From Heliocidaris erythrogramma (lineage: Eukaryota; Echinodermata; Echinoidea; Camarodonta; Echinometridae): a stretch of 64,000 nucleotides of DNA. The translations under genes and the position numbers were made by a program. Shown piece after piece: positions 20,235-61,436 of the stretch. The stretch lies in contig CM046855.1 of assembly GCA_025617745.1 (NCBI GenBank), positions 42,913,663 to 42,977,662 of the forward strand. Reading direction: 5' to 3'. Below the pieces are notes generated by a model, which saw only the letters and a program-made list of their open reading frames with translations, was not told the origin of the DNA and made no database searches. Numbering within the stretch: position 1 is the stretch's first letter; every line of letters begins with the position of its first letter.

Positions 20235-20803
20235 AAGGTTGCTGGTTCTAAACAATTTTGTGCTAAACAATGGCGTGGTGATCACACCAGCGCCAAACAC
20301 TGAAATTGCCCACACCAGCCCGTTGCTCGCATGACTTCGCGGTGAACCTCATGCGCGGGCTCTGTTGTTTGGAACCAGTATCCTGGACGACGAGCGAATA
20401 TGACGTCAGCACTTCGGTACTCTATTGTACATGTCATTATATGTACTGTACATATAGATGCATGTGCATGATCAATTCTGTAGTTTTAATTTTTATTTAT
20501 GCCAATTAAATATTTTTTAACAATATTTTTTCATGTTACATGTATAGGACCTACAGCTGGCAGCCTGGCTATCGAACATGATCGTTATTGAATGTAAATT
20601 ATAGGCCTGCTTTATTTTTGTATAAATATTTTTGTACAATTTTAGCATTGAATATTTCTAAAATAATTTCACATTTTTCTGACTTGTAAACATTTTTTTA
20701 GCTAATATTGATCACTTTGTAGGCCTACAGTTTTATTTCATTATTTTATCTGTATAATTTAGGTCCATATTAATTATTTTCAATTTTGTTTTTGCTGTTG
20801 CAG

Positions 20804-21082
20804 ATGGGGAGACGTTATCAGCGGAAGAGTGACCGAGCGAATTGGGATGTTGAAGTAATGGAAACTGCTCTAGAGGCTGTCAGACAGAGGGGGATGGGAG
20901 TGAAGACGGCTGCGAAGCAATTCAATGTTCCTGAAACAACATTACGCAGGAAAGTGAAGAATGCAAATGCCACTGCGAAGCAGGCTTTGGGACGCAAACC
21001 GACTTTGACGTTGGAGTATGAAGATATGTTGGTCGCCAAGTTGAAGCAAATGGAGTCAAATGGATTTGGTTTACACCCACAG
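20804..21082 (+). CDS. pogo/Tigger-like transposase, exon 1 (DNA-binding HTH)
   Basis: This 93-codon exon starts at an ATG directly after a TTGCAG acceptor-like sequence and ends at a CAG/GTATTT donor. It encodes a psq/CENP-B-type helix-turn-helix: MGRRYQRKSDRANWDVEVME, then GMGVKTAAKQFNVPETTLRR, which in pogo-family transposases binds the element's terminal repeats. The first AG could mean that a 5' exon precedes it. Downstream pieces are at 21437-21604, 22173-22196 and 35101-36534. Exon phase matches (0/0). Whether this is a transposon copy or a once-domesticated gene cannot be told, because its own inverted termini were not found. Confidence 0.75.
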
Positions 21083-21436
21083 GTATTTATGTTAATACCA
21101 TACTACTTTTAAAATGTTGATATAAATAAATTCAGGAATTAAAAAACAAATGAAGCAATCAATTTTATTCAATACTCATAATATTACCATTCATTATGAA
21201 GATATTTTCACTTATTTGTGTACATGTTCCTAACTGGTACATAGCCACATGTGGCCTATTTAGCAATTTAATATGAGAACATTGATCATCTACATGTTCA
21301 TGGTAGGCTCATGTACAATCTAATATTGATACTAGATGATAACTAAGCTGTGTTATTTTTATTATTGGATTGAATGTATGATTACTGTGGAAAAAAAAAT
21401 CAGAAGAGTTACCAGAACTTAACATTTATTGTACAG

Positions 21437-21604
21437 GATTTATGTGTACTGGCCTTTGAATTTGCTGAGAGAAATGGGCTGCAACACAACTTCAACAAAG
21501 AGAAGAAACAAGCAGGATATGACTGGATGTGTGGCTTTATGAAACGTCATCCAGACATCTCTCTCAGAAAAGCTGAAGGTTTGTCATGTGCCAGAGCCAT
21601 GAGT
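21437..21604 (+). pseudogene. pogo/Tigger-like transposase, exon 2 first part
   Basis: The exon follows a TGTACAG acceptor in phase 0 with exon 1. It encodes the second DNA-binding (CENP-B/Tc5) module: DLCVLAFEFAERNGLQHNF, then YDWMCGFMKRHPDISLRKAE, ending GLSCARAMS. At 21604 it is cut by a 560-bp element whose target duplication (CCATGAGT) encodes part of the break. Translation then runs into a stop at 21682. The frame resumes exactly after the duplicate CCATGAGT at 22165-22172. Confidence 0.75.
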
Positions 21605-22164
21605 CCCAGGGGGGGTCACTCACCACATTATGTGCTACGCACGCGCGTCCACACCCTTAATGGCGTATCGCGTGAGGTCTAATTTGCACCTCTATACAGC
21701 GTCACATCAGAAAAACATACCCTAAATGGCGTCAACACGCTCATCACTCCATCCAAAAATACCCTAAGTGGTGTATAAATTATCAAGGTACCAAGTACAA
21801 TACCCTTAATGGCGTTTGAAATAAATAACCCCAATTAAACAGGCAGCAACAAAATAAGACTTCTACAGTTTGAACAGAGAAACATGATTTACTAACATTT
21901 CTTTTGTCACAGAAAGACTATGATTTCTTTGATTATCGTTTACTCAAATAAGTAGGAGACATGTTTCCTTGATTTTGATTTTGTACCCTAAATGTCGGAT
22001 TTGAAATTTGTGAAATGGTACTCTAAACGGCGATTGAAGTTGAAAAACACCCCTTTTTTAAGGAAAACGTCGACGACGCCTTAAACCTGATAAAAACAGA
22101 CCCTTTTCGATGTTTTTTGTGGACGAGCGTGGGTAGCACATAATGTGGTGAGTGACCCCCCGGG
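21605..22164. mobile_element. hAT-like non-autonomous element, 8-bp target duplication
   Basis: The perfect 8-base duplication CCATGAGT flanks it (21597-21604 and 22165-22172). The termini are inverted repeats: CCCAGGGGGGGTCACTCACC on the left, and GGTGAGTGACCCCCCGGG on the right, with homology continuing through ACATTATGTGCTAC. An 8-base duplication with C/G-rich ends is typical of the hAT superfamily. The interior carries short phrases TACCCTAAATGGCG in several variants. No transposase is encoded. Its removal restores the transposase frame, so the insertion is unambiguous. Confidence 0.85.
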
Positions 22165-22172
22165 CCATGAGT

Positions 22173-22196
22173 ATGAACCCAACTACTGTGCAGAAT
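22173..22196 (+). pseudogene. pogo/Tigger-like transposase, eight-codon stub
   Basis: After the hAT-like element the transposase frame resumes as MNPTTVQN, a segment that in related transposases leads toward the DDE domain. It stops abruptly at 22196, where the sequence turns into the inverted terminus of the 12.9-kb insert. The next in-frame transposase codon (GGG of GKYFDMLEEV) is at 35101. Confidence 0.65.
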
Positions 22197-22209
22197 TTAC
22201 AAAAAAAAT

Positions 22210-23760
22210 TGTATGGTATAGCTCTATGGTAGATGATTGCTCTATGGTATACCATATAGTGTAGATAATATGGTGGGGATAAAGTATGGTAGATGCTTGT
22301 TCTATGGTATATCATATGGTCTAGATACATGGTGAGTAGATTGCATATGGTACATCTGTATGGCAGACGCATGTTCTATGGTATACTACATGGTGTAAAT
22401 ATATGGTGAGTAGAATGCATTATGGTACATCTGTATGGTAGATGCTTGTTCTATGGTATACATGTACCACATGGTGTAAATATATGGTGAGGATGAATAT
22501 GGTACATCTGTAAGGTACATGTAGATGTTTGTTCTATGGTATACCACATGGCTATTATGGTGAGTAGATCGCGTATGGTACATCTGTATGGTAGATGCTT
22601 GTTCTATGGTATACCACATGGCTTATGGTGAGTAGATCGCGTATGGTACATCTGTATGGTAGATGCTTGTTCTATGGTATACCACGTGGCTATTATGGTG
22701 AGTAGATCGCGTATGGTACATGTGTATGGTAGATGCTTGTTCTATGGTATACCACATGGCTTATGGTGAGTAGATCGCGTATGGTACATCTGTATGGTAG
22801 ATGCTTGTTCTATGGTATACCACGTGGCTATGGTATACCACGTGGCTATTATGGTGAGTAGATCGCGTATGGTACATGTGTATGGTAGATGCTTGTTCTA
22901 TGGTATACCACATGGCTTATGGTGAGTAGATCGCGTATGGTACATCTGTATGGTAGATGCTTGTTCTATGGTATACCACGTGGCTATTATGGTGAGTAGA
23001 TCGCGTATGGTACATGTGTATGGTAGATGCTTGTTCTATGGTATACCACATGGCTTATGGTGAGTAGATCGCGTATGGTACATCTGTATGGTAGATGCTT
23101 GTTCTATGGTATACCACGTGGCTATTATGGTGAGTAGATCGCGTATGGTATGGTAGATGCTTGTTCTATGGTATACCACATGGCTATTATGGTGAGTTGA
23201 TCACGTATGGTACATATGTATGGTAGATGCTTGTTCTATAGTATACCACATGGCTATTATGGTGAGTAGATCGCGTATGGTATCTGTATGGTAGATGCTT
23301 GTTCTATGGTATACCACGTGGCTATTATGGTGAGTAGATCGCGTATGGTATATCTGTATGGTAGATGCTTGTTCTATGGTATACCACATGGCTATTATGG
23401 TGGGTAGATCGCATATGGTACATCTGTATGGTAGATGCTTGTTCTACAATATTATGGTGTAGAATATGGTGCACAGATTGTATATGGTACATCTATGTGA
23501 TAGATGCTACTTCTATGGTCTACCATATTATAAATTAATTATAGTGAGCAGTATGTATATGGTACATCTCTATGGTAGATGCATGCATGCTTGTTCTATG
23601 GTTTCCCATATGGTGTAGATTATTGTGGTGAATATTGTATATGGTACATCTATATGGTAGATGCTACTTGTATAGTCTACCATATGGTGAAAATAAATAG
23701 TGAGCAGTAGGTTTTATGTATAATGGTACATCTATATGGTAAAGATGCTATAACGTGTAG
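22210..23760. repeat. Minisatellite, about 65-bp units of TATGGTAGATG type
   Basis: Units read TATGGTACATCTGTATGGTA, GATGCTTGTTCTATGGTATA, CCACATGGCTATTATGGTGA and GTAGATCGCG. They are about 65-70 bases long, some fifteen copies, most regular between 22540 and 23400 and decaying at both edges. Copies alternate in CACATGG/CACGTGG and CTTAT/CTATTAT variants, which points to two-unit higher-order expansion. No spacers as in CRISPR; no coding function. Confidence 0.85.
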
Positions 23761-23796
23761 TCTTTTGTTTGGTGTCCTGTTTTAGTAATTATTCAA

Positions 23797-24157
23797 GTTT
23801 GTCATTAAATTTTTTTTTTTTTTTTTTTTTTAAATGTATTTATTGAATTTTACAAAATGCAACAAATCAGGTACAAAATCAGGATAATCATAAAATATGA
23901 ATAATAATTACAAAAACAAAAGAAAAACCCCCAACAACAACAGATAAAAATAAAATAAAGAGAGCAGCTAAGATAAAAGTAAAATAAAGAGAGCAGCTAA
24001 CAAAACAATACAAAGGACCTGAGAGGATGCCCATAGCCAACCGAAGACGACCCCACGAAACGAACCTGGCAACGAACGGCTAATCACCCCGCCCACTATA
24101 CTAGCGACATATACAAGGCAGATCCCATAACTGTGAATGATGTTTGTCATTAAATTT
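23797..24157 (-). mobile_element. Poly(A) retroposon with 16-bp target duplication
   Basis: The direct repeat GTTTGTCATTAAATTT occurs at 23797-23812 and 24142-24157. Between them lies a T-run (A-tail on the minus strand) preceded on that strand by AATAAA-type sequence. A direct duplication of this length plus a tail indicates LINE-mediated target-primed insertion of a 5'-truncated LINE end or processed RNA. A 27-base phrase (AAAGAGAGCAGCTAA) is duplicated inside (about 23957-24000). The source gene is not recognised. Confidence 0.75.
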
Positions 24158-24239
24158 AATATTTCATCGGTTATATTATGACATACTTTTGTAGTAACAT
24201 GTTCATCTGCAAACTATTTAGTCTCATAAATGAACTGTA

Positions 24240-24680
24240 CTTTCGAGGACAATTTTGAACGTTTTGGCCAATAGACTACATCAACTTCGCCCGTGTAAAC
24301 ATCATTGGCCAATGAAATCGATAGACAGAAAATGCCCACGAAAATGCTGAACATGAAGTTAAACAGGGTAAGTGTTACAGTTTCTGCCAGTATATCTTTT
24401 AGAATTGCATTTTATTTCATTATAACCACATTTTAAGCTCTATTTTCAAATGTAAATTATTTGTTTCATAAATTATTGAAATTTAAAAAAAAATAAAAAT
24501 GCCGTATTCGTATCGCTTTAATACGTGCGCCGTGATTGGCCGATCAATCTCTGAGCTGCATGCATGCATGCATATGATGCGCGCTCGCAATATATCCGCA
24601 CGAAATTGAAATAAAATTCAGCCGCACGATATCCTTTCTCTTTGGTGAGCTTTCAGCGTTAACAGTAAGCGTAAAATATG
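24240..24680 (+). promoter_or_regulatory. Candidate promoter with CCAAT boxes
   Basis: GGCCAATAG (24268), GGCCAATGAAATCG (24306) and the inverse GATTGGCCGATC (24534) lie within 300 bases in locally CpG-richer sequence. A short start (MLNMKLN) runs into GGTAAGTG near 24367, a donor-like site. This could be the 5' end of a gene inside the 12.9-kb insert. Evidence is motif-level only. Confidence 0.25.
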
Positions 24681-25819
24681 TTTTTATGTCTTGTAGAATA
24701 TAACCTCTGTGTGATCAAGTCATGGCATGACATCATGTGCATTTTAATATATATTTCACTAATTTAAACACAAAATAACAGTGTAAACAAGATCGAGCAA
24801 CAATAATATTTACGCATGTCAATAACCCAGTCCCATCTGTTCAATTTTGTGTAACGTTTTTGTCATTGGCAGCCTTATAGACCAGTTCTGATCTGTCTAC
24901 CAAATTTCACATTTTCTTGCGCATTTATTGTTATTGTACCGAAATTATTATTCAGTATTAGGGCACAATATTGTTTCTGGTATATATCTAGCCAACAGGA
25001 CACATGGAAGGAGTCCTCCAAAAGAAGTCTAGTCTAAAGAAAAGAGGGTTATCATATCAATTATCATCATGATCATTTTGCTTTTGGCTGGACATGCTGG
25101 AAAAGGCAAGCACCTGGTCCTGGTTTAAAGTCTAAACATGTTAAAGAAGATGGCCTCTCCTGTAAAGAAGGCTTTGAGGTAATCACTTGAGGTACAGTGT
25201 ACGTTGTTTTTTGTCCATCCCAGTAAGAACGGACAATGCCAAACTAGTTTACTGCTGCATTTTCTATTGCAATCTGTATTGGGGGGGGGGGGGGGGGGAA
25301 TAAGATAAATATACTTACTTTCAAATTCAGCTCTTAAAAATCTCATTCTTACCTCGAATGGCCATTAGGTCTTAGGAAGAACTTCTGATATTTCCAGCAA
25401 AATCCAAAGTCAAAATTATGTCCCAAAACTGAAGAAATCCCTGGTTTTTTTTTTTCGCTATCACACGATGTTGTTTTCATTCTGCCGATGTGTTAGACTA
25501 AACTTAGCCAATAAAATTTTGTTCACAAAGAAACTCGGTATCGCGCTGATATCGATCTCTACAATTGCGCACACAGAAAACCGGGACTTTCATGTATGCG
25601 CGACAGGGACCAAATTTTTGCCAACCCAATTTTTTTTTTCGGGGAGATGTCGGCGCTCGCGGTGACCAAGAAATACAATGATTTCGATACCCCGTAAATT
25701 TAATTTTTTTAATAAATCTTTTCCAACATCAGTGAGTTGAATTTATTGTATTTCATGGATATGTTAGTGTTGATATTCGTAAATTAAATGCTGATTTTGA
25801 GTGAATTTTTGTGCATTGG

Positions 25820-25960
25820 CGTTTGAAAGTGTTATTATTATTGTTATACTATACTCTCGGACGGTCATACAGTATAACAATAATAATAATAGCTACATTT
25901 ATTACATGTATATTGCGCACGTATCTATCCCATAAGTGGGCAATGGTTTAATTCTGATCT
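25820..25960 (-). mobile_element. 3' fragment of tRNA-derived SINE
   Basis: On the minus strand the phrase TGCGCAATATACATGTAATA, then AATGTAGC and a (TTA)n-type tail resembles the 3' end of the SINE copies at 42241-42512 and 47004-47241. Next to it the tail forms a hairpin (TATTATTATTGTTATACT with its complement, 25838-25890). Confidence 0.5.
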
Positions 25961-26102
25961 GAACGCATATCACATTGTGTGAGGTGGGCTGAATCTCCAT
26001 TCTGATATCTAATTATGTAATTAATAAAGACATTATGCACTGTACACCTTGACTATTGTTATTTGGTAAGGTAAAGTATGGGTGATTTGTTTTTGTCCAC
26101 AG

Positions 26103-26313
26103 GAAGAATGGAGTTTCAAACTCGTACAATTATTCTGTTTTCACTTTTTAAGGATGATCTCCAAGGAGAAGAAGAAAAGAGTTAAAAGTGCTTGCGAGGA
26201 GGTGTCATAGAAGATATCATGAGGCGCACTAGGACTCACCGAGCTCAATATAGAACCAACCAAGGTGCAGGAGTTCCCCATCCTGAAGTTGGAGACTTGG
26301 AGTATTGGGTAAT
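26103..26313 (+). CDS. Candidate exon inside the 12.9-kb insert (weak)
   Basis: From about 26190 one frame is open up to a GTAATT donor-like site at 26311. It encodes CLRGGVIEDIMRRTRTHRAQ and then GAGVPHPEVGDLEYW. A second frame also looks protein-like (GLTELNIEPTKVQEFPILKL), and there are stops just upstream, so frame choice is uncertain. I do not recognise a family. Confidence 0.2.
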
Positions 26314-26602
26314 TAGAGGTTTATAAAAAATCTGGACTTAATTATCGGGAACAGATAATACATGTAGTTGTATACATGTACACAATTTTTCAGGCAAAAG
26401 GATGTTTTAATTTGATTCCCTCTATCTACCTTGTTTTTATGATGTTCAAAGCATGCATACAAATTCACTATGGATGTCAGCTTTAGTAATCAGCTTTTAA
26501 AAATATTGTCCATTCTTAGGATTATTTTCGATAAATTTCATGTCTTATACTTTCTCTAACAAAACAAGAATAATGCTATGATATATTTTTTTGAATTTGC
26601 AG

Positions 26603-26759
26603 AATCTGAAAGAGATGGAGTTTTTCCGGACTGCCCTTGAGAAAGTAGCAGAGAAAATAATCCACGTTTGGAGGAATTCGACCCTTGGTTCCACAAGCTG
26701 TCTCTTCAAGGAATACAATGCCCTCATCCAGGAGTGTATTGGGAAAGACCAAATGAAAG
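26603..26759 (+). CDS. Candidate exon inside the 12.9-kb insert
   Basis: Bounded by TTTGCAG and AAAG/GTCAGT. The single frame open throughout encodes NLKEMEFFRTALEKVAEKII, then HVWRNSTLGSTSCLFKEYNA and LIQECIGKDQMK. Base composition is less AT-rich than its surroundings. It ends one base into a codon, which does not fit the best frame of the next candidate exon at 28916. Family unknown. Confidence 0.3.
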
Positions 26760-26984
26760 GTCAGTATTTGTTTAAAAGTTTTGAATGCATTTTGCGAATG
26801 GTCTTCATGGTTACCATTCTAACAGGAGGGGGGCCTGAAGATTTTGTCTTCGAAAAAAATATTAGTAAACGAAGAAGCTTAATGGGAGGAATTTTTAATT
26901 TGTAAACAAATTTTTAGGCATTTTACTCCCAGTGTTAAAGATCGTATGCTCGATCTGTAATGAAAAACACAAGTCAGAAAAAAT

Positions 26985-27058
26985 TGGAACCAGCGGGATT
27001 CGAACCTGTCATCTACTGCTTGCCGGGCAGCGACTTAACCACCAGGCTATTCTGGTTC
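26985..27058 (-). ncRNA. tRNA-like segment in repeat (copy 1)
   Basis: The minus strand reads GAACCAG as one acceptor arm and CTGGTTC as the other (7 perfect pairs). An A-box-like TAGCCTGGTGG, a perfect B-box-like GGTTCGAATCC and a 5-bp stem with the loop CCGGCAA (GGC in the anticodon position) lie in between. The D-arm spacing is off by two bases and the T stem has mismatches, and three copies exist in one repeat. A tRNA-derived SINE head is likelier than a working tRNA. Confidence 0.55.
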
Positions 27059-27268
27059 ACGGCCAAGTCACGATGAACTGGAATCAAATACCCAAGATCC
27101 TCTTCTTTCTGACTCATTAATATTCAAACGGTCTGCCGTAGACAATGGTTAGTAAACGAAGCTTGATGGGAGGAATTTTTAATTTGTAAACAAATTTTTA
27201 GGCATTTTACTCCCAGTGTTAAAGATCGTATGCTCGATCTGTAATGAAAAACACAAGTCAGAAAAAAT

Positions 27269-27342
27269 TGGAACCAGCAGGATTCGAAACTGTCATCTAC
27301 TGCTTGCCGGGCAGCGACTTAACCACCAGGCTATTCTGGTTC
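27269..27342 (-). ncRNA. tRNA-like segment in repeat (copy 2)
   Basis: Same fold as copy 1 with two changes, including GATTCGAAAC for GATTCGAACC, which damages the B box. This supports decay as a repeat and not selection as a tRNA. Confidence 0.5.
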
Positions 27343-27401
27343 ACGGCAAAGTCACGATGAATTGGAATCAAATAACCAAGATCCTCTTCTTTCTGACTCA
27401 T

Positions 27402-28241
27402 TATACCCCCGCCAAACGAAGTTTGAAGGGGGTATATATAGGAATCAGTCGACGGTTGGGCGGGCAGTCGGGCGGGCGGGCGGTCGGTCGGTCCGTTGCA
27501 AATCTTGCGGATCGAACTACTTCCTCAGTTTTTGACCGAAATACATGAAATTTGGTACACACATTGGTCTTGGTGGGAAGATGTGCAAGACATATTTTTC
27601 GGAGTCGGAATCTGCGTTGCCATGGTAACGGCATATTTATGGCAGAAAATCAAGGAAACACCTTGCGGATCGAACTACTTCCTCAGTTTTTGACCGAAAG
27701 TCATGAAATTTGGTACACACATTGGTCTTGATGGGAAGATGTGCAAGACATATTTTTCGGATGAGTCGGAATCTGCGTTGCCATGGTAACGGCATATTTA
27801 TGGCAGAAAATCAAGGAAACACATTGCGGATCGAACTACTTCCTCAGTTTTTGACCGAAAGTCATGAAATTTGGTACACACATTGGTCTTACTGGGAAGA
27901 TGTGTACAACATATTTTTTTTGATGTGTGGGAAGCTGCGTTGCCATGGAAACGGCATATCTATGGCAGTAAATCAGGGAAAATCTTGCGGATCAAACTAC
28001 TTCCTCAGTTTTCGACCAAAAGTCGAGAAATTTGGTACACACATTGGTCTTGGTGGGAAGATGTGCAAGGCATATTTTTTGGATGTGTCGGAAGCTGCGT
28101 TGCCATGGAAATTGCATATCTATGGCAGTACAGTAAATCAGAGAAAAATCTTGCGGATCGAACTACTTCCTCAGTTTTCGACCAAAAGTCAAGAAAGGCT
28201 GTTGTCACGGGGCGGGGGTATTAATCATCATCTTCAGTGAT
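27402..28241. mobile_element. TATACCCCCGCC-type dispersed element with internal tandem units
   Basis: It starts TATACCCCCGCCAAACGAAG and ends CAGTGATATTTCTAGTT. The body has about four tandem units of roughly 165 bases (ACTACTTCCTCAGTTTTTGA, AAATTTGGTACACACATTGG, TTGCCATGGTAACGGCATAT). It interrupts the second 290-bp repeat, whose uninterrupted sibling at 27114-27124 (CTCATTAATATTC) gives the empty site. A shorter copy is at 46218-46738. Confidence 0.75.
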
Positions 28242-28564
28242 ATTTCTAGTTAATATTCAAACGGTCCGCCGTAGACAATGGTTAGTAAACGAAGAAGCTT
28301 GATGGGAGGAATTTTTAATTTGTAAACAAATTTTTAGGCATTTTACTCCCAGTGTTCGAATCCTGCTGGTTTCAATTTTCTCTGACTTGTGTTTTTCAAT
28401 ACAGTGGGAGTAAAATGCCTAAAAATTTGTTTACAAATTAAAAATTCCTCCCATCAAGCTTCTTCATTTACTAACCATTGTCTACGGCGAACCGTTTGAA
28501 TATTAATGAGTCAGAAAGAAGAGGATCTTGGGTATTTGATTCCAGTTCATTGTGACTTTGCCGT

Positions 28565-28638
28565 GAACCAGAATAGCCTGGTGGTTAAGTCGCTGCCCGG
28601 CAAGCAGTAGATGACAGGTTCGAATCCCGCTGGTTCCA
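28565..28638 (+). ncRNA. tRNA-like segment in repeat (copy 3, inverted)
   Basis: Plus-strand copy with intact GAACCAG/CTGGTTC arms and GGTTCGAATCC B box. It lies in the inverted member of the repeat cluster. Probably a SINE head. Confidence 0.55.
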
Positions 28639-28915
28639 ATTTTTTCTGACTTGTGTTTTTCATTACAGATCGAGCATACGATCTTTAACACTGGGAGTAA
28701 AATGCCTAAAAATTTGTTGAAAAAAATATTATTTAATTTTCTTCTTTACTTATTTAGACTCTGTCACAGAACTCTCATGTTTTATATGTCTGCACATGTG
28801 TTAATAACAGGGGTGTACATCAAGTTGCTTTAAAAAGCTACTCCATATCAATTGTTTGTTATGTGAACGCCAGAACTTTCATAGATTTAATATAATTTGT
28901 CTGATTAACTTCCAG

Positions 28916-28984
28916 ATCTGACACTCCCTTCTGGCCATACCACACCTGCTTGGCGAGAAGGACATGATGTATGTTGTAGACAAG
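28916..28984 (+). CDS. Candidate exon inside the 12.9-kb insert
   Basis: Bounded by TTCCAG and GACAAG/GTAAAT. The most protein-like frame encodes HSLLAIPHLLGEKDMMYVVD followed by K and ends in phase 0, matching the phase-0 start of the next candidate (EPVTPTP…). However, that frame has a TGA at the very 5' end of the exon, so the acceptor or the frame may differ. Family unknown. Confidence 0.25.
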
Positions 28985-29298
28985 GTAAATGACATTTTAA
29001 ACCTTTTCTTCCCAAAACATGTTGCAACCACTATTCCATTCTACCATAAAGATACTAGTAAGACATGGTGTAACATAAGTGGGGGGAGTGGTCTGAATCT
29101 GATGCAGGAAATTGTTCACTTGAATTACATGGGGTTAAATTTTAGAGTATGACACTAGATTTAGCTCAATTTTTTTCTCATTTCCTCTACCCTCTTTCCT
29201 ACATACATGTACTTCTGTAGTTCTAAGGAGGAATCATAAGATGATTGTACTTTATCATGCACAGTGACCTGGTAAATTTCTTTCCTTTTACTTCTTAG

Positions 29299-29457
29299 GA
29301 ACCTGTGACACCAACACCAGCTGCAGTGTTTAGAGGAAAGCTGGTACAAGAAGACCTTGTAACTGAAGTCTGGATTGAAGGGGCAAGGTGTGCCACTGCT
29401 CTGGAGCACTCACAGGGTTTGCCACTATGTTTTCCTCTGTTACATCTATGGGCTTGA
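29299..29457 (+). CDS. Candidate terminal exon inside the 12.9-kb insert
   Basis: A pyrimidine-rich tract and CTTAG precede a 52-codon frame EPVTPTPAAVFRGKLVQEDL, then VTEVWIEGARCATALEHSQG, ending in TGA. It fits in phase after 28916-28984. No family recognised. Confidence 0.25.
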   Translation, partial: EPVTPTPAAVFRGKLVQEDLVTEVWIEGARCATALEHSQGLPLCFPLLHLWA

Positions 29458-29599
29458 GTACCCAAAGCTGGGGTCTAATACATTTTGGAGAGTTCACTCT
29501 GCAGCACCACTTGCCCCGGTCACTATCTAAATGATGTCTTATATGTATGTCAATGTACATGATGCGTGCAATGATATTTATGTGGTACAATGGTTGTCA

Positions 29600-29830
29600 G
29601 CCCCCCTTTTTTTTTTTTTACAAAAGTGGCGGATTTAGGATTTCTATTGGGGGGGGTGGGCAAATTGAAAAAATCAAAAAAATCAGGTGAGCGAAGCAAG
29701 AAATAAACAGGAGCCCAAGTTTTTGTCAATATACTGAACCATAATCAAGGCATTTGAAGCCTGTTTTTATTACATGTAGTTGGTTATTTTAATCCCCCCC
29801 CCCCCAATCTCGTTTGGCCGCTGGTCACGC
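29600..29830. repeat. G/C-run MITE-like repeat
   Basis: AGTGGCGGATTTAGGATTTC followed by a G run, and a C run followed by AATCTCGTTTGGCCGCTG, form loose inverted ends. Similar poly-G-ended repeats appear at 6620, 12840, 30350 and 38380. Confidence 0.35.
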
Positions 29831-30531
29831 AATCGCTGCAAACTTTTGCCTAAACATAGAGCCAGATGTATGCAAATGAAAGCATATTTTCAACTAACTC
29901 CATCCATGTAAAAAAGCGTGAAGTGCTAGGACTGCTGAATATTTGTGTCAGTATTCCTGAGCACACATCAAATAATTACCTTGCAAAAAAAAATACAATC
30001 AAAATTAATTTCTTATATTTTAAATGTTTTGTTAATTGCTTATGTATTTTATTGACCTTTTGTTTTCTATTGTTTTTAGCCAAAATTTGTTGCAGACACC
30101 TTTTCAAGCTTATTTACATTAAAATTTATTAAGTTCAGTGATCAAAAGTTAAAATAATCTAATTAATATCAATTTAACCCCCAAAACACAGTTTACAGTG
30201 GATTTGCATGGCTGCACACAAAATAAACTAGAAAGGCCGTCAAAGGCGGCAGACCCACGCCTTAACCCAATAGGTTTTGTTTTGTTGCGATTATTTTTGT
30301 AAGCAGTAGCCATTCAAAGGGGATAACAAGAGGCACATCTCCCCCCCCCCCCCAATAAATTTTGCCATATCCAGGTCATAGCTTTGTGTGTCCCCACCCT
30401 TGAAAAAAATTCTTCTGAAAAAGATATTTTATTATTCAAACATCCCTCCCCTAAAAGTAATTGATTAGACATGTCAGAGAGCGTGGCGTAGTGAGAAAAA
30501 AAATGTTAGCAATTTGTATTCAGTGTTCAGT

Positions 30532-30707
30532 CCAAGGCCGTACGCAGAAATTTTTTTCCTGGGGGGGCAAGATGATCGCTTTCAAAGGAACCCATAACTT
30601 GAAGTCTAAAACCCGATTAAAAAAAAGTATGATTATGAAATTTCTGGGGGGGGGGGGGCAGGGGGGGGGGCAACTGCCCCCCCCCTCCCCGCTGCGTACG
30701 GCCTTGG
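30532..30707. mobile_element. MITE with CCAAGGCCGTACGCAG ends and 6-bp duplication
   Basis: The left end CCAAGGCCGTACGCAG is the exact complement of the right end CTGCGTACGGCCTTGG. TTCAGT flanks both sides (30526-30531 and 30708-30713). Inside are long G and C runs. The element is 176 bases long and non-coding. Confidence 0.75.
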
Positions 30708-31389
30708 TTCAGTCATGTCAGTGTTAGTAAATGTATTCATGTTCTATCTTTACATTGCAATTCGGGTTGTTGTTTTTTTTTTCATCGGGCTTGGATAAAA
30801 TAAATATGACGACAAAAGAAGTTGGATCTCGACTTGAAAATGACGTGCATGCGAGGCACAGAGCTTACTCACTCAGTACTACAGTCAGCCGGCCCCAGGC
30901 ACTTTGCGACAGTGCTGTGTATAGTTATGTACGTACACTACAGCTACTCAGCCACTCACTCAGATCAACACACGCGAACACTCGCGAGTGCGATAGACTC
31001 ACTCACGTCGAACAAACGCACCAGATTTTCACCGAAAACAATTAAAATCACGTACTACACGTCCACCAGGATAAAATAAATCACAAAAACTTCCACAACA
31101 AAGTGGAAAGAACCGGGGAAAATAAACAGAAATGCACAGAAGATAAGAAATAGGAGAAATTAGACGTGCTAGGCTATACGTATACCGTATACCTAGCCGC
31201 TTTCGATTTCGCAACGAGAGTACAGTTCAAGCGCGAAAAATCCCTTGTTGCTGGGATACGTTGGCTTTGAATATTCATTGCAGGCTCGTGCGGATTTGAA
31301 GTGAAATAGCAAATAATGGGTCTAAAAGTCTTCTAAAATTCATAAACCTGAAATAGATTTTTGGTGAGACGAAGTAATGAGTGTTTTGA

Positions 31390-31735
31390 TTGACCAAAAT
31401 ATTTCTGCATCGGCAGACGAAGTTTGGGGTCATCAAACTTTCTAGTTTCTATCCTGTCACTCTCTGAACTGAAGTTCCTATACTTTACTACAGGGTCAAA
31501 AGTTCAAGGTCACACAGAATTTGCAGGGGTCAACCAATCATCACCAAAATCTAATCGATTCTTTCCTGTCACTTTCTGAACATTCCCTGAAAATTTGGTG
31601 CAAATCCGTTCACCCGTTCTCTTGTTATCTTGTACACAAACAAACAAACATACAAACAAAAAAAAAAAAACAAAAAAAAAAAAACATACGGAGCCCTTTA
31701 CATAACCCTGCCGATTTCATCGGCGTGGGTAAAAA
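31390..31735. repeat. Repeat with CCGATTTCATCGGC end
   Basis: It starts near GCATCGGCAGACGAAGTTTG and ends with CCCTGCCGATTTCATCGGCG, with an (AAAC)n-rich tract at 31640-31690. The inverted CGGCAG/CTGCCG edges and the simple tract suggest a mobile repeat; low certainty. Confidence 0.35.
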
Positions 31736-32068
31736 GTTTGAGCTTTTTGGGCTGTATGCACGTACAGAACATTAAGTAATTTCTTAAGTTTACCCGGACG
31801 TTGCAAATATGGTCTCAAAATATGCAGGAGACTTCAAAGCAAAAAGCCATTATGGCGGGCCCAAATCATCGCACGTTGCAGAATCAGCTCTCGAAATGTC
31901 GGATTGGATTATGGTTAAAGAGGAAAGAAATTCAGACATTGATGTACTTTCAGTGAATAAAGTGGAACAAGAAAGACTAAAAAGTGAAAGTTTGAGCAAA
32001 ATTGGATAATCGGTTCAAAAGTTATGAATTTTTAAAGCTTAAGTAAATCCTTATCATGGGGACCCTTG

Positions 32069-32353
32069 AGTTGGCAACACCACCAGCATTTGTGATGTCA
32101 TTGTGGAATACTCTCCATTGGTTTTGTACACAGAATTTCACATTATTTCAATTTTCACAAAAAGTAGAAATTCTTCTGACTTCATGTCAGAAGTATGAGA
32201 TGGCTACATCACATTTGCAAGCATTTCTGAAGGTATCATGTTTATTCCTGACCTAATATATCATGAACTGATAAAAATGTGAAATTCTGTACATACAAAA
32301 CCAATGGAGAGTTCTCCACAATTACATCACAGATACTGGAGGTGTTGCCAACT
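32069..32353. mobile_element. MITE with about 76-bp inverted repeats
   Basis: AGTTGGCAACACCACCAGCA onward on the left mirrors TACTGGAGGTGTTGCCAACT on the right, and homology continues through CTCTCCATTGGTTTTGTA and AGAATTTCACATT. An inner hairpin (CTTCTGACTTCATGTCAGAAG) is at about 32172-32193. No clear target duplication. Confidence 0.7.
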
Positions 32354-32454
32354 GATAAATTGATAAATGAATTAATAACTAGAATTCTTTTTTTCTTCTT
32401 CAAATCCTACCAACAGATCCTGTGGAAATTAACTCTAAATAATACAAGCATGTC

Positions 32455-32910
32455 ATTACCATGTGTTTTTACAGATATCTACCACATACTTGTCTTAGCC
32501 ATATTTTGCTGCCATAGCGGTTTGCAATGTATTCTTAACCATGCATTATCAAAACTTATGTGTTTTTGTAGAAGTTTTTAACTAGTTTATTTTCTTAGCC
32601 AATTTGCTGCCACTATTGCCTTATGGACCTCAATGTTTTCTAAACCTTTCTCAGTATTCTTACATGTTATTGTAGAAGTAACTATTTATTTTATCTTAGC
32701 TCTACTTTGCTGCCTTTCTTGCCAATATGGATCTCATTGTATTCTTAACCTTTATCCATACTACAATGTGTTTACTGTTTAATAATGCATCTAGAATTTT
32801 TAAACCAGTCCTCGAATCTTAGCCATATTTTGTTGCCACTATTGTGTATAGATTTTGATGTATTCTTAACCTTTATCAGTATTTTAACATGTTTTTGTAG
32901 AAGTTTAATG
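32455..32910. repeat. Four diverged tandem units, about 120 bp
   Basis: Each unit contains CATGTGTTTTTGTAGAAG, CTTAGCCATATTTTGCTGCC and GTATTCTTAACC in that order. Copies differ by many substitutions, so the array is old. Confidence 0.65.
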
Positions 32911-33689
32911 ATTTATTGTCTTGCATGCGGAGCAAGCTAGTGCCAGGTATAGGGATTACTTTTTCCAGCGATGGCGGCGTTGTCAACAATCCAGGTTAAA
33001 GTTTGAATGTGCCTCACACTTTCAAGGCTGTTATTCCAAAACTGTAAAATTTTTGTGTAATCTGTTTCTTATGATCGAGTATAATGTACTCTTTCATGAG
33101 AGTCCCAATATTTTGGTAGACATTCAGTGATTTTATAACCTTATAAACGTAGGTTAAGCAATGGTTTAAAGCATCAAAATTTCAGGTTAAAATTTGCAGA
33201 GTCAAACTTGAAACCTGGTAATTTTGATACTGTTCGTCCAGTAAACTTCAAACTTAATTCAGATGATCGAGGAGAGTGTCCTCTTTTATGTGAATCCCCA
33301 CATTATGTGTTTTATGCTGGAATAGTGAATTTCAGCTTCAGATTTTCAGAATTGGCAGAATATGAACTATGAACTACATAATACTAATTTTATTAGAACA
33401 AACACCATGTAGTTCAATGCAAAATGTGGGAGTATTACTAATTTTTAACGGGATCATGTCTAATTTCTGGAGCTTCGTGTTGGCAACTTTGTCATTAGTA
33501 TCACCGTTTGCTTAGAAGGTAACACATTTCTGTTATATATGTACTTCTCTATTCAGTCCATATATTAAAATATTTCTTTATTGTGTAACATTATTTCACG
33601 ACTCGGTTTTTGTTTTGATACAGGTAATTAACCATGTGAACAATACAACTCTATATGATTGTAAAGTACAGTGTTGGTTCTATGCAGGT

Positions 33690-35090
33690 GGTTATAATTT
33701 ATCTACCATATCCCACTAGGCTTGATTCCCCAAAGGTATATGGATAATACATACTAAAACCACAGTGGTAGGTATGGTGGTTATAGATGCATTGTAGTTG
33801 TATGGTAGATATTAGGTGGTAACATGGAACATATTGTATGGTACCTTTTTGGTGACTGTGGTAGATATGTCTGGTAGATAAATGGGGCATTTGTGTTAGC
33901 TGTTTGGGTTTGGGGTAGATGTATGATGCTTCTGGGGTAGATGTATGTTAATTATATGGACGATGTATGATTCATGTATGGTGTTTATATATGGTGTATG
34001 TATGGTGGGTATATGGTGCAACCACAGAAGCACCATATGCCTGCCATATAACCATCATACATACACCATATATAAACACAATACATATATCATACTAGTA
34101 TCATACATCTATCAAATACTACCATACTTCTACCATATAATCACCACACATTTACCATAGAAGTGCCATACAGCTACCATTATGAACACCATATAACCAC
34201 CATACATACCCCATATAACCACCATACATACCCCATATAACCACCATACAATCGCCATATAGCCACCATACATACACCATATAACAACCATACGTCTACC
34301 ATATGACAACCATACACCATATAACCACTATACATCTACCACGAAATCACCATGCATTTACCACACGGTGCTTCTGTGGTAGATGTATGGTAGATACATG
34401 GTGCTTCTGTGGTAGATGTGTGGTAGTTATATGGTAAGTATATGGTGCTTTGCTGGATGGTGTATGGTGGTTGTATGGTAAATATATGCTGCTTCTGTGG
34501 AAGATGTATGGTGGTTATATGGTAGATGTATAATATCTCTATGATGTATGGTGTTTCTGTGGTCATTTGGTTGATATATGGTGCTTCTAAGGTAGATGTA
34601 TGATGCTTTTGTGGTAGATGTATGGTGGGTATTTGGTGCTTTGGTGGTAGGTGTATGGTGGTTATATGGTAGATACATGGTTCTTCTGTGGTAGATGTGT
34701 GGTAGTTATATGGTAGGTATATGGTGCTTTGTTGGATGGTTTATGGTGGTTATATGGTAAATATATGGTGCTACTGTGGTAGATATATAGTAAACAATAT
34801 ATGGTAAGTGTATGGTAATTGTATGGTATTACTTTATGGTAGATGTATGGTAGCATAAATTTGCATAAATTTTCCCCAAAATGTTAATGAGATGTATGGT
34901 ATTTGTATGGTATATGTATGGTACATGTGTTATGGTGTATGTATGGTATCTGTTCTATGGTATCTGTGGTATATGTATGGTATTTGTGCTATGGTATCTG
35001 TGATGTATTTATATGGTATTTGAATGGTATAAGTCTATGATACCATACCATACCATTGTATGGTATTTTTATTGTATACCATAGCAATTT
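33690..35090. repeat. Second minisatellite zone (ATGGTAGATG type, both strands)
   Basis: ATGGTAGATGTATGGTGG-like units run on the plus strand at 33770-34020 and 34370-35040. The complementary form (CCATATAACCACCATACATA) fills 34020-34370, so the zone includes large internal inversions. The motif matches the left-end minisatellite of the same 12.9-kb insert. Confidence 0.75.
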
Positions 35091-35100
35091 TTGTTTGTAA

Positions 35101-36534
35101 GGGAAGTATTTCGACATGCTGGAAGAGGTACTTACAACGGAAGACGTCATCACCAAACCTCACAGAATCTACAACATGGATGAATCTGGAATCCAGATGG
35201 TTAACAAACCAGGCAAGGTGTTCGCTACAAAAGGGAAGAAGTCTGTGGTAGCATTAACCAATGCCGAGCATGGGGAAAATGTGACGGTGGTTGCTTGCTG
35301 CAACGCTAGTGGTACATATATACCCCCATACCTCATCATGAAAGGTGTGCGACGCAAGGACGAATGGACTGATGGCATTCCACCAGGATCACAAGTGGAA
35401 ATGTCACCATCAAGCTACATCAACAAGGAACTGTTTGTAGATTGGCTGAAACACTTTCGCAACCATGCTGTTGAAGGAAAGGTGTTATTGCTCATGGATG
35501 GGCATAGATCGCATGTTCAGTCAATTGAAGCTCTGGAGTATGCTGTAGCAAACAACATCCTCATGGTGTGCCTGCCACCACATACCACCAAATATCTTCA
35601 GCCACTGGACCGGACTGTCTTCAAGCCACTGAAGACCTTCTTCCAGCAAGCAGCGATTCGATGGATGAAGAACCAACCTGGAAGGGGCATCACTAAGTAC
35701 CAGTTCCCAAGTTTATTTACTGAGGCTTGGGGAAAGGCTGCATCCATGGGAAATACAACAAGTGGGTTCACTGCTTGTGGTGTGTATCCATTCAATCCGG
35801 ATAGGATCCCTGAAGACGCATTTGATCCATCGTTAGCTACAGAGCGTGATATGCCTCCTATTCCCGAAGCAGCTCCCCAGGGAGATCCAGCTCGAGCTCG
35901 AGCTCCACCAAGACCAGAGCCACCAGCTCCACCAAGACCAGAGCCACCAGCTCCACCAAGACCAGAGCCACCAGCTCCAAGACCAGAGCCACCAGCTCCA
36001 CCAAGACCAGAGCCACCAGCTCCACCAAGACCAGAGCCACCAGCTCCACCAAGACCAGAGCCACCAGCTCCACCAAGACCAGAGCCACCAGCTCCACCAA
36101 GACCAGAGCCACCAGCTCCACCAAGACCAGAGCCACCAGCTCCACCAAGACCAGAGCCACCAGCTCCAACAAGACCAGAGCCACCAGCTCCACCAAGACC
36201 AGAGCCACCAGCTCCACCAAGACCAGAGCCACCAGCTCCACCAAGACCAGAGCCACCAGCTCCACCAAGACCAGAGCCACCAGCTCCACCAAGACCAGAG
36301 CCACCAGCTCCAACAAGACCAGAGCCACCAGCTCCAAGACCAGAGCCACCAGCTCCACCAAGACCAGAGCCACCAGCTCCAAGACCAGAGCCACCAGCTC
36401 CAACAAGACCAGAGCCACCAGCTCCAAGACCAGAGCCACCAGCTCCAAGACCAGAGCCACCAGCTCCAACAAGACCAGAGCCACCAACATCTGAAGATGA
36501 GGCATCTTCAACAATGGGAGACACACATAATTGA
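35101..36534 (+). pseudogene. pogo/Tigger-like transposase, DDE catalytic part with proline-rich tail
   Basis: The frame resumes at GGG (GKYFDMLEEVLTTEDV) and runs to a TAA at 36532. It holds a DDE_1 domain: first Asp in RIYNMDESGIQMV, second in VLLLMDGHRSH, third in YLQPLDRTVF (36 residues between the last two, DD36D). PPYLIMKG and TSGFTACGVYPFNPDRIP are further family motifs. From about residue 250 of this segment (M at 35116) a tail of about 25 RPEPPAPP repeats follows, then SEDEASSTMGDTHN. It would cut and join DNA if joined to exons 1-2, but the 12.9-kb insert separates them. Confidence 0.8.
35905..36487 (+). repeat. 24/21-bp coding minisatellite (RPEPPAP)
   Basis: Tandem units CCACCAAGACCAGAGCCACC plus AGCT (24 bases), with 21-base variants lacking one codon and a few CAACAAGACC variants. 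Both lengths keep the frame. Because no stop arises in any frame, long shadow ORFs appear on both strands. Confidence 0.9.
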
Positions 36535-49905: not shown

Positions 49906-50325
49906 CTTGCTCGCCCCCGACGAGTTAGGATGTCTAGTCACAGCGCTCCTGAAATCAGGTCTTTTTAGTATCTTTTAGGCGCGCTTTTTCACATCTTTAA
50001 AGCACTTTTAGGTACCTACATTCTCTTAGATTATAGTACTTTGTGTTTTAGTAGTCACTCTTGCCGATTGCAAGGGATTTTTGATTCATTTTCTTGGCAT
50101 TTATTTTTCGCTTTCACGGTCAGCCCCACGTAGATATTTCTGTGTGTTTGCGGGTGTTTCCGTTTGTCACCGAGCCTTTGGGTTCGGTGTTTGTTCTTAC
50201 GGTTTTTGGCTGTGGAAATTTTTTGTGCGGATCTCCCAAATAAACTTTAGTTTTATTTACTGCATTCAGTTAAAGTATTTCTTATTTTGAAAAGTATACT
50301 TTATTGTCTGTTTTATTGCAGTGTT

Positions 50326-51003
50326 ATGAATTCGGAAGAAGAAGCAGTTAGGTCACGGAGACCTGCTTCTTCCGAAGAGTCGTCTAGCAAGACGACTCAT
50401 GGGGGAGGGAGGAGGGCTACGGGTAAGTTTCCTAGTGGTGTTTCCTTGCAGAGTTTGCCAGTCTCGGAGCTTGCGGCTTCGGGGCGGTTGGCGTTAACTG
50501 ATTCTGGATTGTCAACTCCGAGGCCCGTGGCTTCGGGGTGGGTGGCGTCAGATTCTAGTGGTTTGGATATCTCGAATCCAATCCCCCGGTCGTCAAGACC
50601 AGAAGGGGGGGCGGTTGTTTCCCGCACGGTAGCGTTCACTCGCTTAAATCCGTTAGGGGAGACGCGTCCCACTACTGCAGGGCAGCCCACGGGCTTAGTC
50701 CATGTTGGTCTGGGTTCACAAACCCTAGCCCCCGGCCGATGCCATATGGGGGAACGAGTACTTCCCAGGCTGTCTACATTGCCAGCTGATGGGAATGCTC
50801 GAGCTAACAATTATGGACGCTCTTCGGAGCAACAGGTGTTTTCACCTGAGTGCGTGACTACTAGTGCTCTCCTATTGCCGCTCCCTAGCGGTTCAATAGC
50901 GGGTTCACACGCCTTTAGTAGTCAACGGGCACATACCGAGTCATCTCGGTCTGCCCCCGCACTGGGTGCTTTTAGCATCTTCTTGCTCAGCCAATATGGG
51001 TAA
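50326..51003 (+). pseudogene. DIRS ORF1 (Gag-like), first segment
   Basis: ATG at 50326 (MNSEEEAVRSRRPASSEESS) opens a Ser/Gly/Pro-rich, disordered frame typical of the poorly conserved first protein of DIRS elements. It ends at a TAA at 51001. The next frame (from 50966) continues similar composition, so a frameshift in the 50966-51003 overlap probably splits one ORF. No catalytic motif. Confidence 0.5.
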
Positions 51004-51820
51004 TTTGTGCGAGACTTTGGGTTCATACCCTCAGCACACTACTCCCTTTGAGGGAGGTGAGCGTCCCTCCGCGAAGGGTTCGGTTCGTGTTTCCGAAGCG
51101 GCTTCGGGGATCCGAACGAATCCGAATAAGCGCTCTAAGAAAAGGGTTTCGGCTACGACTCTTGTCGAGCCAGCCAAGAAGAAGGCCAAGAAAAAGGCAA
51201 AAAGGGGCAAGGCTTTGCCGGCCTCTTGCCCGTCTGGCCTGGCTAACCCGGCTAGCTCCTCTCAAGCTGATATGTTCAGCATGATGCGGGCTTTCGCTCA
51301 GAATCAGGGTTGGTCCTTTGTACCGGGTACTTCAACCCTTGCTTCTGTCCCTATTCAGGGGTCTCACTTTGAGACTAATCAGCCTTTTGTGATTGAGTCA
51401 TCTTTGTCTGAGTCGGGTTCGCAGGTGCCTCCTATTCCCGCGGCCCTCGGGGCGCCGCCGGGCGAGGAGACTTTTGCTGAACCATGGGAGGCTCCGCCTG
51501 CTGCGTCCTTTGTTAGAGGTCCTTTTTCTCATTCCACTCGGGTGGAACCAGACTTACGGGCGGCCTATCAAGCTTCGGTTTCTGAATCGCTTGGGCAGGC
51601 GGAGCCTCAATCGCTCGCCCTGTGTGGGGTGGAAGCGATTGCTTTGTTGTCTAAATATCTCCCTGAATTTCAGTCAGCCCGCGCGCAGGGTTCGACTTCG
51701 CGTTGGTTCAGGCAGCAGGATTCCTCAGAGGGTATTTTTCTCGAGGAGGATTTCAAGCTGGAGTATGACCGCATTGAGGCTGCGCTGTTGGTTAAGCGTC
51801 CTGTTTCGGTTATTGGGTAA
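50966..51820 (+). pseudogene. DIRS ORF1 (Gag-like), second segment
   Basis: Contains a strongly basic patch (KRSKKRVSATTLVEPAKKKA, then KKKAKRGKALP), which looks like a nuclear-localisation or nucleic-acid-binding stretch, then a Ser/Pro-rich region and FKLEYDRIEAALLVKRPVSV. The frame closes at 51820 while the frame of 51393-52529 continues the protein (KAFAFGSQDQDSFFKAKTLS), so a single-base shift near 51800 is likely. Confidence 0.55.
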
Positions 51821-52529
51821 GGCCTTTGCCTTCGGTTCTCAGGATCAAGACAGCTTTTTCAAAGCTAAGACTCTTTCTCCGGAGATTTTAGAAGTTGGTC
51901 GTCGCTTGCGGGCGACTAATGCGCTAACCTCTGTTGCTTATAAGACGGAGGATAAGCTTTGGTTTAATGTTGAAAACCAGGTTAGGGCAGGTATGCGTTT
52001 GGCGGCTTTTCAAGGGTTTCTCTCCGACCTTAGGTCCAGGGCGGAGGAGTTGAACGTTACTGATGGTGACAAGCTGGTTATTGATGACTTACTGCATACT
52101 CTTTTTTGTTTGCAGTGGTCACAGCTTTCCACCGCAGCTGCTTCGGTTACGTTCCGTCGCAAGACCCCGGCTCTCTCGGCACTGGGTGTTAGAGAGTCGG
52201 GCATTGCTCAACCTCTCCGAGATGTCCCGTCTCGGGGTCCTTCGCTTTTCGGTGGTAAATTCGCTACGGTTTTTCAGAGAGAGATCGATGCGCGAAAGCA
52301 GATCTCGGATATGACTAAGCAGTTTCACACTCACTCTAAGTCGACGCGGGCCCCTGTCCGGCGGAGGCCTGCTGGTCCCGCTTCGGGTCAACACAGTCGT
52401 GTGTCTGGGGTCCCGCCTTCTGAGCCGCAGCCAGCTCCTTCTCGCGGGAGAGGGGGTCGTGGCAGGGGCTATTCGAGAGGTTCTCGTGGTAAGGCGACGG
52501 CTTCGCATAAGGCCAAGCCTAGGTTTTGA
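51800..52529 (+). pseudogene. DIRS ORF1 (Gag-like), C-terminal segment
   Basis: The frame encodes SPEILEVGRRLRATNALTSV, then VENQVRAGMRLAAFQGFLSD, a helical region characteristic of DIRS ORF1 proteins, and ends in an Arg/Gly-rich tail (PSRGRGGRGRGYSRGSRGK) suited to binding RNA. The upstream part of this frame (51393-51800) is an Arg/Leu-rich shadow of the second segment. Confidence 0.6.
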
Positions 52530-52539
52530 TGTTCTTCCC

Positions 52540-54462
52540 CGAGCGTTTGTTCTTCCAGTCATGGTAGGTGGCCGACTTCATTCCTTTCTCCCCGCTTGGG
52601 AGGCCATCTCCGGGGATGCGTTTGTTCTCTCCGTCGTGCGAGACGGATTCTTCATAGATCTTTCCGCTTCGCTCCCCGGAGGGGCTATAAGAATTCGGTC
52701 ACCTCCCATGTCTGCCCTGGCTCGATCTCATGCTTCAAAGGAGATCGAGTCTCTGTTGGAAAAGAGGGCTATAGAAAGGGTAAGAGACAGGCCGTCTCTT
52801 TCCCTTTCTCCAATTTTTGTTATTCCCAAGCGCTCGGGAAAACTTCGTTTGATACTGAACCTGAAAAGAATAAACAAATTCATTCCTCCAGTACATTTTC
52901 GGATGGAGACTCTCGCCTCCATTCTTCCGTTGATCAAGTGGAAGGACTACGTGGTCTCGATAGATCTCAAGGACGCGTATTTTTACATTCCCATTCATCG
53001 CGCTTCGCGCGATCTTCTGGGGTTCTCCTTCCTCTCAGAGACTTATCGTTTTCGCGCTCTTCCCTTCGGGCTGCGCCCGGCCCCTCGGGTTTTTACTCAA
53101 GTTGTAGCTGTGCTGGCGGCCTCTCTGAGGTGACGTGGCCTTCGGCTATTTTGTTACCTGGACGATTCTGGCTTCTTCTTGCGGAGTCGCGCGATCGTTT
53201 GCTAGACGAGACTTGTTTGCTCGTCACTCTTACTCAAGACTTAGGTTTCCTAATAAATTGGGAAAAGTCAGAGTTAGTTAGTTACTCGCAGCCCAGTTTT
53301 TCTGGGGGTGGTGTTAGACATACGGAATCAGTTGGCTCGGCCCAGTCGAGACAGGATTCTCACCATTGTCTCTGTGGCTCGCAAGCTCTTGCTGGCCAGA
53401 AGGGTCAAGGCCAGACAGTGGCTTCAGTTTCTAGGTTATCTAGCCAGTCTAGTCAATGTTCTAGAGGACTGCCGGCTCCTCATGAGACCTTTTCAGAGAC
53501 ATCTCAGGTTTTTCAAGCCGGGAAAAGACTCTCTTTTGGTCTGGATTCCAGTACCAGTAAGGATCAAGTCTCTTCTCTCTTGTTGGACGAGCGAGGAGTT
53601 TCTCGCGCGAGGCAGGTCCTTCAGTACCCCTCTCCCGTCGATCTCGGTTTCGATGGACGCCTCTCGGTTGGGGTGGGGAGGACACTGCAACGGCAGCACG
53701 GTTGCGGGGGATTGGTCTCATCTTGGGACTCTTCCCCATATCAATGTCCTGGAGTTTATGGCAGTTCTGTTGACCCTGCTCCATTTCAGAAGTCGACTTC
53801 TCAGTCGTTCGGTTCTGATCCTCACGGACAATATCAATCGGCAGGGAGGCACTCGTTCGGCTGCCCTGAATGCCCTAGCAGCTCAGCTGTGGAGGTGGTG
53901 TCGTCGCATGGCGATCACACCCGTGGCCTCTTTCATCCCCGGTCGGGAAAACCTCATTGCGGATTTTCTGTCTCGGGGCAGGTGTCTTCCATCAGAATGG
54001 ATGCTCCATCCGGAGCTCTTTTGCCGCATTCGCAGTTGCCTAGGTCCACTGGAAGTGGATCTATTTGCGTCGGTGCTATACCACCAGCTGCCGAAGTATT
54101 GCTCCCGTGTTCGCGATCAGGGAGCATGGGCTCTCGATGCTTTCTCCCTCAGCTGGGAGAACCTTCAAGGATTCGCCTTTCCTCCCTTCCAACTGATTCC
54201 GCGAGTCTTGCGGAAAATCAGGGAAGATCGGGCTCGGGTGATTGTGATAGCTCCCTTTTGGCCCAGGAGGAATTGGTTTCCGGAGCTAATGAGCCTCCTA
54301 AGGGCTCAACCGTTCCTTCTCCCGCTAAGAGCGGATCTGGTGTTGCAGCCCCTCTCGGGGATTCTTCACCACAGTCCGGAGTCCCTTCATTTGACTGCTT
54401 GGCCCCTGTCAGGGAATCTGCAAGACAGTCGGGTCTCTCTGATAGAGCCGCGGACTTTTTAA
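52540..54462 (+). pseudogene. DIRS RT-RNase H-methyltransferase-like ORF, broken
   Basis: RT motifs appear in order: IFVIPKRSGKLRLILNLKRI, VSIDLKDAYFYIPIH (motif A), FRALPFGLRPAPRVFTQ (motif B), and YLDD at 53155-53166. A TGA at 53131-53133 lies 7 codons before YLDD. The frame then shifts after YLDD (LLLAESRDRLLDET is one frame over) and returns near 53285. RNase H follows with SMDASRLGWGG, INVLEFMAVL, LILTDN and NLIADFLSR. After it comes DLFASVLYHQLPKYCSR…DAFSLSWENLQGFAFPPF, the region annotated as methyltransferase-like in DIRS elements. The stop is at 54460. Confidence 0.8.
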
Positions 54463-55784: not shown

Positions 55785-55959
55785 ATTTATATAGTAAATA
55801 AGAAAATCAGTGCTGATTTTACAAATCTGTATGAAAATTATTATTAAGATTTATTACGATAGTACACACAAATTTGCATGAGCATTCATTTATGATGATG
55901 AATATGTTATATAATGATTATATTGCATTGTTCATACTTCCATCTACTATTTTGGGCAG

Positions 55960-59418: not shown

Positions 59419-61436
<2,018 letters not shown>

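Follow-up and report, generated by a model that had tools for sequence, protein, structure and literature searches.

The 12.9-kb insert that breaks a pogo-like transposase gene of Heliocidaris erythrogramma is best explained, at a probability of about 0.65, as an old, long copy of a transposon with terminal inverted repeats (TIRs) and array-bearing ends, mobilized in trans and placed in CCC/GGG sites without target duplication. Terminal inverted repeats bound a repeated mobile unit, as in DNA (TIR) transposons, and judged from its sequence the insert belongs to a family of DNA transposons and is not an ordinary intron. It lies within a window of 64,000 nucleotides (C3:42913663-42977662), the whole stretch of DNA analyzed, and the genome searched comprises 1,064,227,859 bases in 26 contigs (1.06 Gb).

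An earlier note, made from the letters of this DNA, had placed the two halves of a pogo-like transposase on either side of the insert, and Pfam bears this out, with HTH_psq (20774-21112, E=7.4e-9) and a weak HTH_Tnp_Tc5 match (21374-21682, E=0.0012, 19.2 bits, below the curated 22.2) to the left and DDE_1 (35101-36534, E=4.5e-23) to the right. The host gene and its junction are as follows, with exon borders set by eye.

20807..21082, + strand: pogo-like transposase exon with HTH_psq (Pfam match; borders by eye)
21436..22190, + strand: second pogo-like exon, split by a small element at 21605-22172, one duplication copy counted (Pfam match; borders by eye)
22191..22196, + strand: CAGAAT, missing at this place in 9 of 12 pogo paralogues and probably derived from the insertion event (paralogue comparison)
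35101..36534, + strand: pogo-like DDE_1 exon (Pfam match)

Joining 22196 to 35101 leaves the frame intact, as had been claimed, with MSMNPTTVQN followed directly by GKYFDMLEEV, and the frame is also intact if the insert starts at 22191 instead of 22197. The DDE exon has a single DNA match in the genome, which is itself; pogo-like matches number 92, and 12 of them were fetched for comparison as empty sites. Nine of these paralogues (L101 to L109, four of which, L102 and L104-L106, are near-identical) have ten residues between an R[AV] pair and two aromatic residues, an interval that holds twelve residues in the window and ten once 22191-35100 is removed. The three misfits are a shorter paralogue (L110), one without a clear counterpart (L112), and one in which only the last part is visible (L111). 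The nine fitting paralogues put the unoccupied site at GTG^GGG, and 22191-35100 is therefore the preferred extent of the insert; the right limit proposed earlier stands, and on the left the paralogues suggest that CAGAAT is extra as well. The GGG would then probably belong to the pogo gene, which at this one site makes it likelier that CCC^GGG is the target than that the element includes CCC/GGG.

Two further features of the host gene may be recorded. The same pogo exon carries a second insertion of about 560 bp (21596-22172), flanked by a 9-bp duplication, GCCATGAGT, at 21596-21604 and 22164-22172, and its ends look inverted by eye (GGGGTCACTCACCACATTATGTGCTAC...). The C terminus of the pogo transposase (35901-36486) contains about 25 copies of a 24-bp unit coding for PAPPRPEP-like repeats.

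The termini of the insert, described in the earlier note as inverted repeats, align over 26 columns, with TTACAAA(n)AAAAATTG(n)TATGGTATA on the left against TTACAAACAAAAATTGCTATGGTATA on the right. The score of this alignment was reached by none of 20,000 random pairs of window 30-mers and by none of 20,000 shuffles; that of its 15/16-base core alone was reached by one of 20,000 random pairs. Inverted repeats and arrays occupy the following positions.

22197..22220, + strand: left terminal inverted repeat (end alignment; also seen in other copies)
22197..23746, + strand: left TATGGTA array, units of about 70/138 bp (inner edge from where core homology starts in two other copies)
33691..35100, + strand: right TATGGTA array, including a CCATA block in inverted orientation at about 34020-34370
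35075..35100, - strand: right terminal inverted repeat, then GGG (end alignment)

The 1574-bp left array (22197-23770) contains 80 TATGG words and the 1410-bp right array (33691-35100) 41, compared with 12 in the 9.9-kb cargo and 16 and 12 in two 10-kb flanks. TATGGTA minisatellites are thus present at both ends as had been noted, but their units are longer, 70/138 bp on the left, built of TATGGTA words, with periods of 11/22/44 bp on the right. CCATA was counted 4 times on the left and 24 times on the right, so that one and the same strand is the richer in TATGG in both arrays. The short copies described below and the right array alike have 11 bp as their commonest TATGG spacing, close to one helical turn, and one may speculate that candidate binding sites are repeated along one face of the DNA.

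The bare 15-mer of the ends was uninformative, with 83 places in the genome and 103 for the reversed control. When the first array word was added, 15 places were found and the reversed-pattern control gave none. Ten of the 15 form five convergent pairs, namely the window copy (12,904 bp) and copies in C9, C11, C13, and C21 of 2074, 1771, 1915, and 2074 bp, respectively. Two more are array-bearing left ends in C2 and C13, for which no partner was found within the 20 kb read, and the remaining three (C6 and both C15 places), which no array follows, were discounted as chance matches. A second pattern gave 18 places (control 2), including the left ends C17a and C17b, which lie in a segmental duplication of C17 and for which no partner was found in about 2.7 kb (C17a) or in about 22 kb with an N run (C17b); six of the 18 (L081, L082, L083, L084, L088, and L092) lack an array and were likewise discounted as chance. 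Besides the window, there are at least four paired copies (1.8-2.1 kb) and at least four unpaired left ends, counts that are lower bounds since mutated ends are missed. The search for further paired ends that the earlier note had proposed therefore succeeded four times, but with pairs of 1.8-2.1 kb, and no other place in the genome was found to hold the 10-kb middle complete. The large DNA transposon family that it envisaged survives in part: a family with paired ends and its own arrays exists, but the other pairs found are short, and the long middle, found complete only in the insert, consists in good part of other repeats.

The C17 duplication (C17:33978709-34008940; L093, L094, L097-L100) has a step of 23.3 kb, with a TATGG-array left end in each unit. 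A separate recurring sequence around TTCTACCATTACAAAAAAAATTGTA explains several of the bare 15-mer places (L040, L042, L048, L056, L057, L063, and L064).

The short copies consist almost entirely of array, the left array of the insert being fused to the right array with the 10-kb middle missing. Local alignments of L024, L026, and L027 to the right side all begin at one base, window position 33788, after an identical left-array word; that of L025 begins farther on, at 34367, with a shorter match from 33799 also seen. End regions are 98-99.5% identical among the short copies and 96-97% identical to the window, and the likeness of their ends shows that the short copies moved recently, which suggests the recent spread of one internally deleted form. 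The window has a longer left array than the short copies and extra degenerate array DNA at 33691-33787, and this extra array DNA beside the middle favors, without proving, a long parent that lost its middle over a short copy that was later filled.

Eleven of the 12 non-window ends are flanked outwardly by CCC and the other, L024 in a poly-C tract, by CC. CC precedes the 15-mer in 12 of 12 non-window ends of the family and in none of 41 other occurrences read (40 stretches, from the 83 places). The window itself has AAT on the left, without CCC, and GGG on the right. A target-site duplication is usual, not universal, for TIR transposons; at L025, L026, L027, and the window insert, the two flanks share no direct repeat as long as 3 bp, and this holds with CCC/GGG counted either as flank or as element. 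At L026 a 2-bp AG match of the flanks could be a 2-bp duplication, and L024, lying in poly-C, says nothing on the matter, so that the informative short pairs number three. These sites support, and do not prove, CCC/GGG-flanked insertion without target-site duplication.

The middle of the insert is, from its sequence similarities, a patchwork, much of it composed of other repeats.

23747..29807, + strand: core common to a high-copy family of this genome (genome similarity search)
23813..24157, - strand: retroposon-like insertion within the core, flanked by a duplication of 16 bp, GTTTGTCATTAAATTT; not present in the C2 copy (L113)
26862..28724, no strand assigned: block of inverted and tandem repeats, probably a later insertion
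29794..31843, + strand: segment S (genome similarity)
30226..31735, no strand assigned: nested, young repeat of 1.5 kb in high copy, with 95-98% identity among full-length copies (40 of 3707 candidates scored)
31915..32353, no strand assigned: degenerate palindromic repeat, about 73-80% identical to its many relatives (40 of 252 candidates scored)
32354..33690, no strand assigned: DNA with no other genome match seen (40 of 252 candidates scored)

Collinear matches to 24200-25100 and 25930-26850 were counted at no fewer than 21 loci (40 of 2975 candidates scored), and at least 13 of these loci match 29616-29807 too (40 of 282 scored); in the searches with the core and the 1.5-kb repeat, abundant repeats filled the 40 scored candidates, and rarer relatives may have been missed. 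In the two core copies read (C2 and C11), homology begins at 23747, the inner edge of the left array, and no TATGG array lies beside the core; upstream, these copies share GGTGCAA-rich DNA that is 98.8% identical over the 171 bp compared. Homology to the C2 copy stops at window position 29807, in a poly-C tract. Either one core is found with different subterminal repeats or a truncated copy abuts the array, and two copies cannot decide between these. The block at 26862..28724 was probably inserted later, because the spacing from 26850 to 29616 is shorter in the C2 copy. As to segment S, 29794-30227 is 97% identical to two C17 places and 31731-31843 is 91% identical to C17, where the nested repeat is absent, and parts of S have relatives elsewhere at 82-84% (40 of 282 candidates scored).

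The earlier note recognized no transposase inside the insert, and neither did Pfam among the insert ORFs scanned, which likewise gave no Rep/helicase or PHIS-type transposase. Internal ORFs had only weak matches to known proteins (one PDB match at E 1.2) and two Pfam matches below cut-offs (E 0.023 and 0.17); the 107-amino acid ORF at 26582 had no Pfam match. Rfam gave no match at gathering scores, phage records showed no DNA similarity to 22150-26000, and none of seven pattern matches to the pogo exon in viral_contigs was confirmed. Pfam at E 0.01 did not bear out a BEN-like peptide noticed by eye beside a C17 left array.

We propose that the insert is an old, long copy whose ends consist of an inverted repeat of about 26 bp and then TATGGTA arrays running inward. 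A transposase supplied in trans would probably bind the repeated words together with the inverted ends and insert the element at CCC/GGG-flanked sites, its target bases apparently not duplicated; the copies that moved recently are the short ones without the middle, as the identity of their ends shows. Since the core of the long copy is common to the high-copy family, that family, with its different subterminal repeats, is the best candidate for the source of the enzyme. A more ambitious version, which we consider unlikely, is a distinct transposon group with CCC^GGG insertion without duplication and exchangeable TATGGTA and GGTGCAA arrays around one core encoding a transposase of unrecognized type. 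Should a single core truly come with both sorts of subterminal array, one could test whether transposases are able to follow new binding arrays, and one route by which minisatellites spread through a genome would be shown.

It is possible, though we do not favor it, that the array elements of about 2 kb are the true transposon and that other transposons, among them a truncated member of the high-copy family, piled up inside one such element to give the 10-kb middle of the insert. The core and several other segments are indeed repeats found elsewhere, the two core copies read have no adjoining TATGG array, and no further complete long copy was found. Against such a pile, and not decisively in any case, stand the extra degenerate array and longer left array of the window, the single fusion at a TATGG word, expected of an internal deletion, that three of the four short copies share, and the start of core homology exactly at the inner edge of the array.

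It is improbable that the two C17 left ends belong to additional long copies of this element that carry segment S as common cargo: a 97% match to S does lie 4960 bp from the C17b left end, likewise oriented, and only the two C17 places match all of S at 97% (40 of 282 candidates scored), but the C17 stretch read, which contains an N run, has no convincing right end, window cargo beyond S is matched there by short repeats only, and parts of S have their 82-84% relatives elsewhere. That the insert is an ordinary large intron of the pogo gene, with ends resembling inverted repeats by chance, is scarcely credible; the frame is kept and GT and AG dinucleotides occur near the ends, but the same paired ends at four other places contradict it, and the GT-AG pairs near the ends tried by hand all shift the frame.

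The old, long transposon copy that we prefer resembles several known systems in part. Tetris foldback elements reportedly carry tandem repeats near inverted ends, as here, but the long inverted arms of foldback elements are absent from the insert, and TATGG prevails on one strand in both arrays. Duplication-free cut-and-paste elements are uncommon; one example is Spy, of the PHIS group, which inserts at a fixed AAATTT target (PMC4482050). The insert family shares the apparent lack of duplication and the fixed target preference, but its flanks are CCC/GGG instead of AAATTT and its ends are minisatellites. Non-autonomous Helentron elements (HINE, DINE-1) are described as having internal repeats and leaving the target site unmodified (PMC4067079). 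Both properties appear to recur here, but in those elements the inverted repeats are subterminal, the targets are T-rich, and a stem-loop is present at the 3' end, whereas the insert family has terminal inverted repeats and CCC/GGG flanks, and thus departs from the A-T or T-rich sites and lack of terminal inverted repeats of Helitrons and Helentrons. Kolobok elements, reported from hemichordates and molluscs among others (PMC9587614), likewise have inverted ends, but their 5'-RR termini are absent here, as is the TTAA duplication of Kolobok and piggyBac. Among the matches listed from the open-licence PMC literature, there was no minisatellite-ended, duplication-free animal transposon.

Elsewhere in the window, long ORFs at 50251-55430 look retroelement-like by eye, with a reverse transcriptase and a tyrosine-recombinase-like end, and translations of 55902-61327 show, again by eye, tandem C2H2 zinc fingers in 84-bp units.
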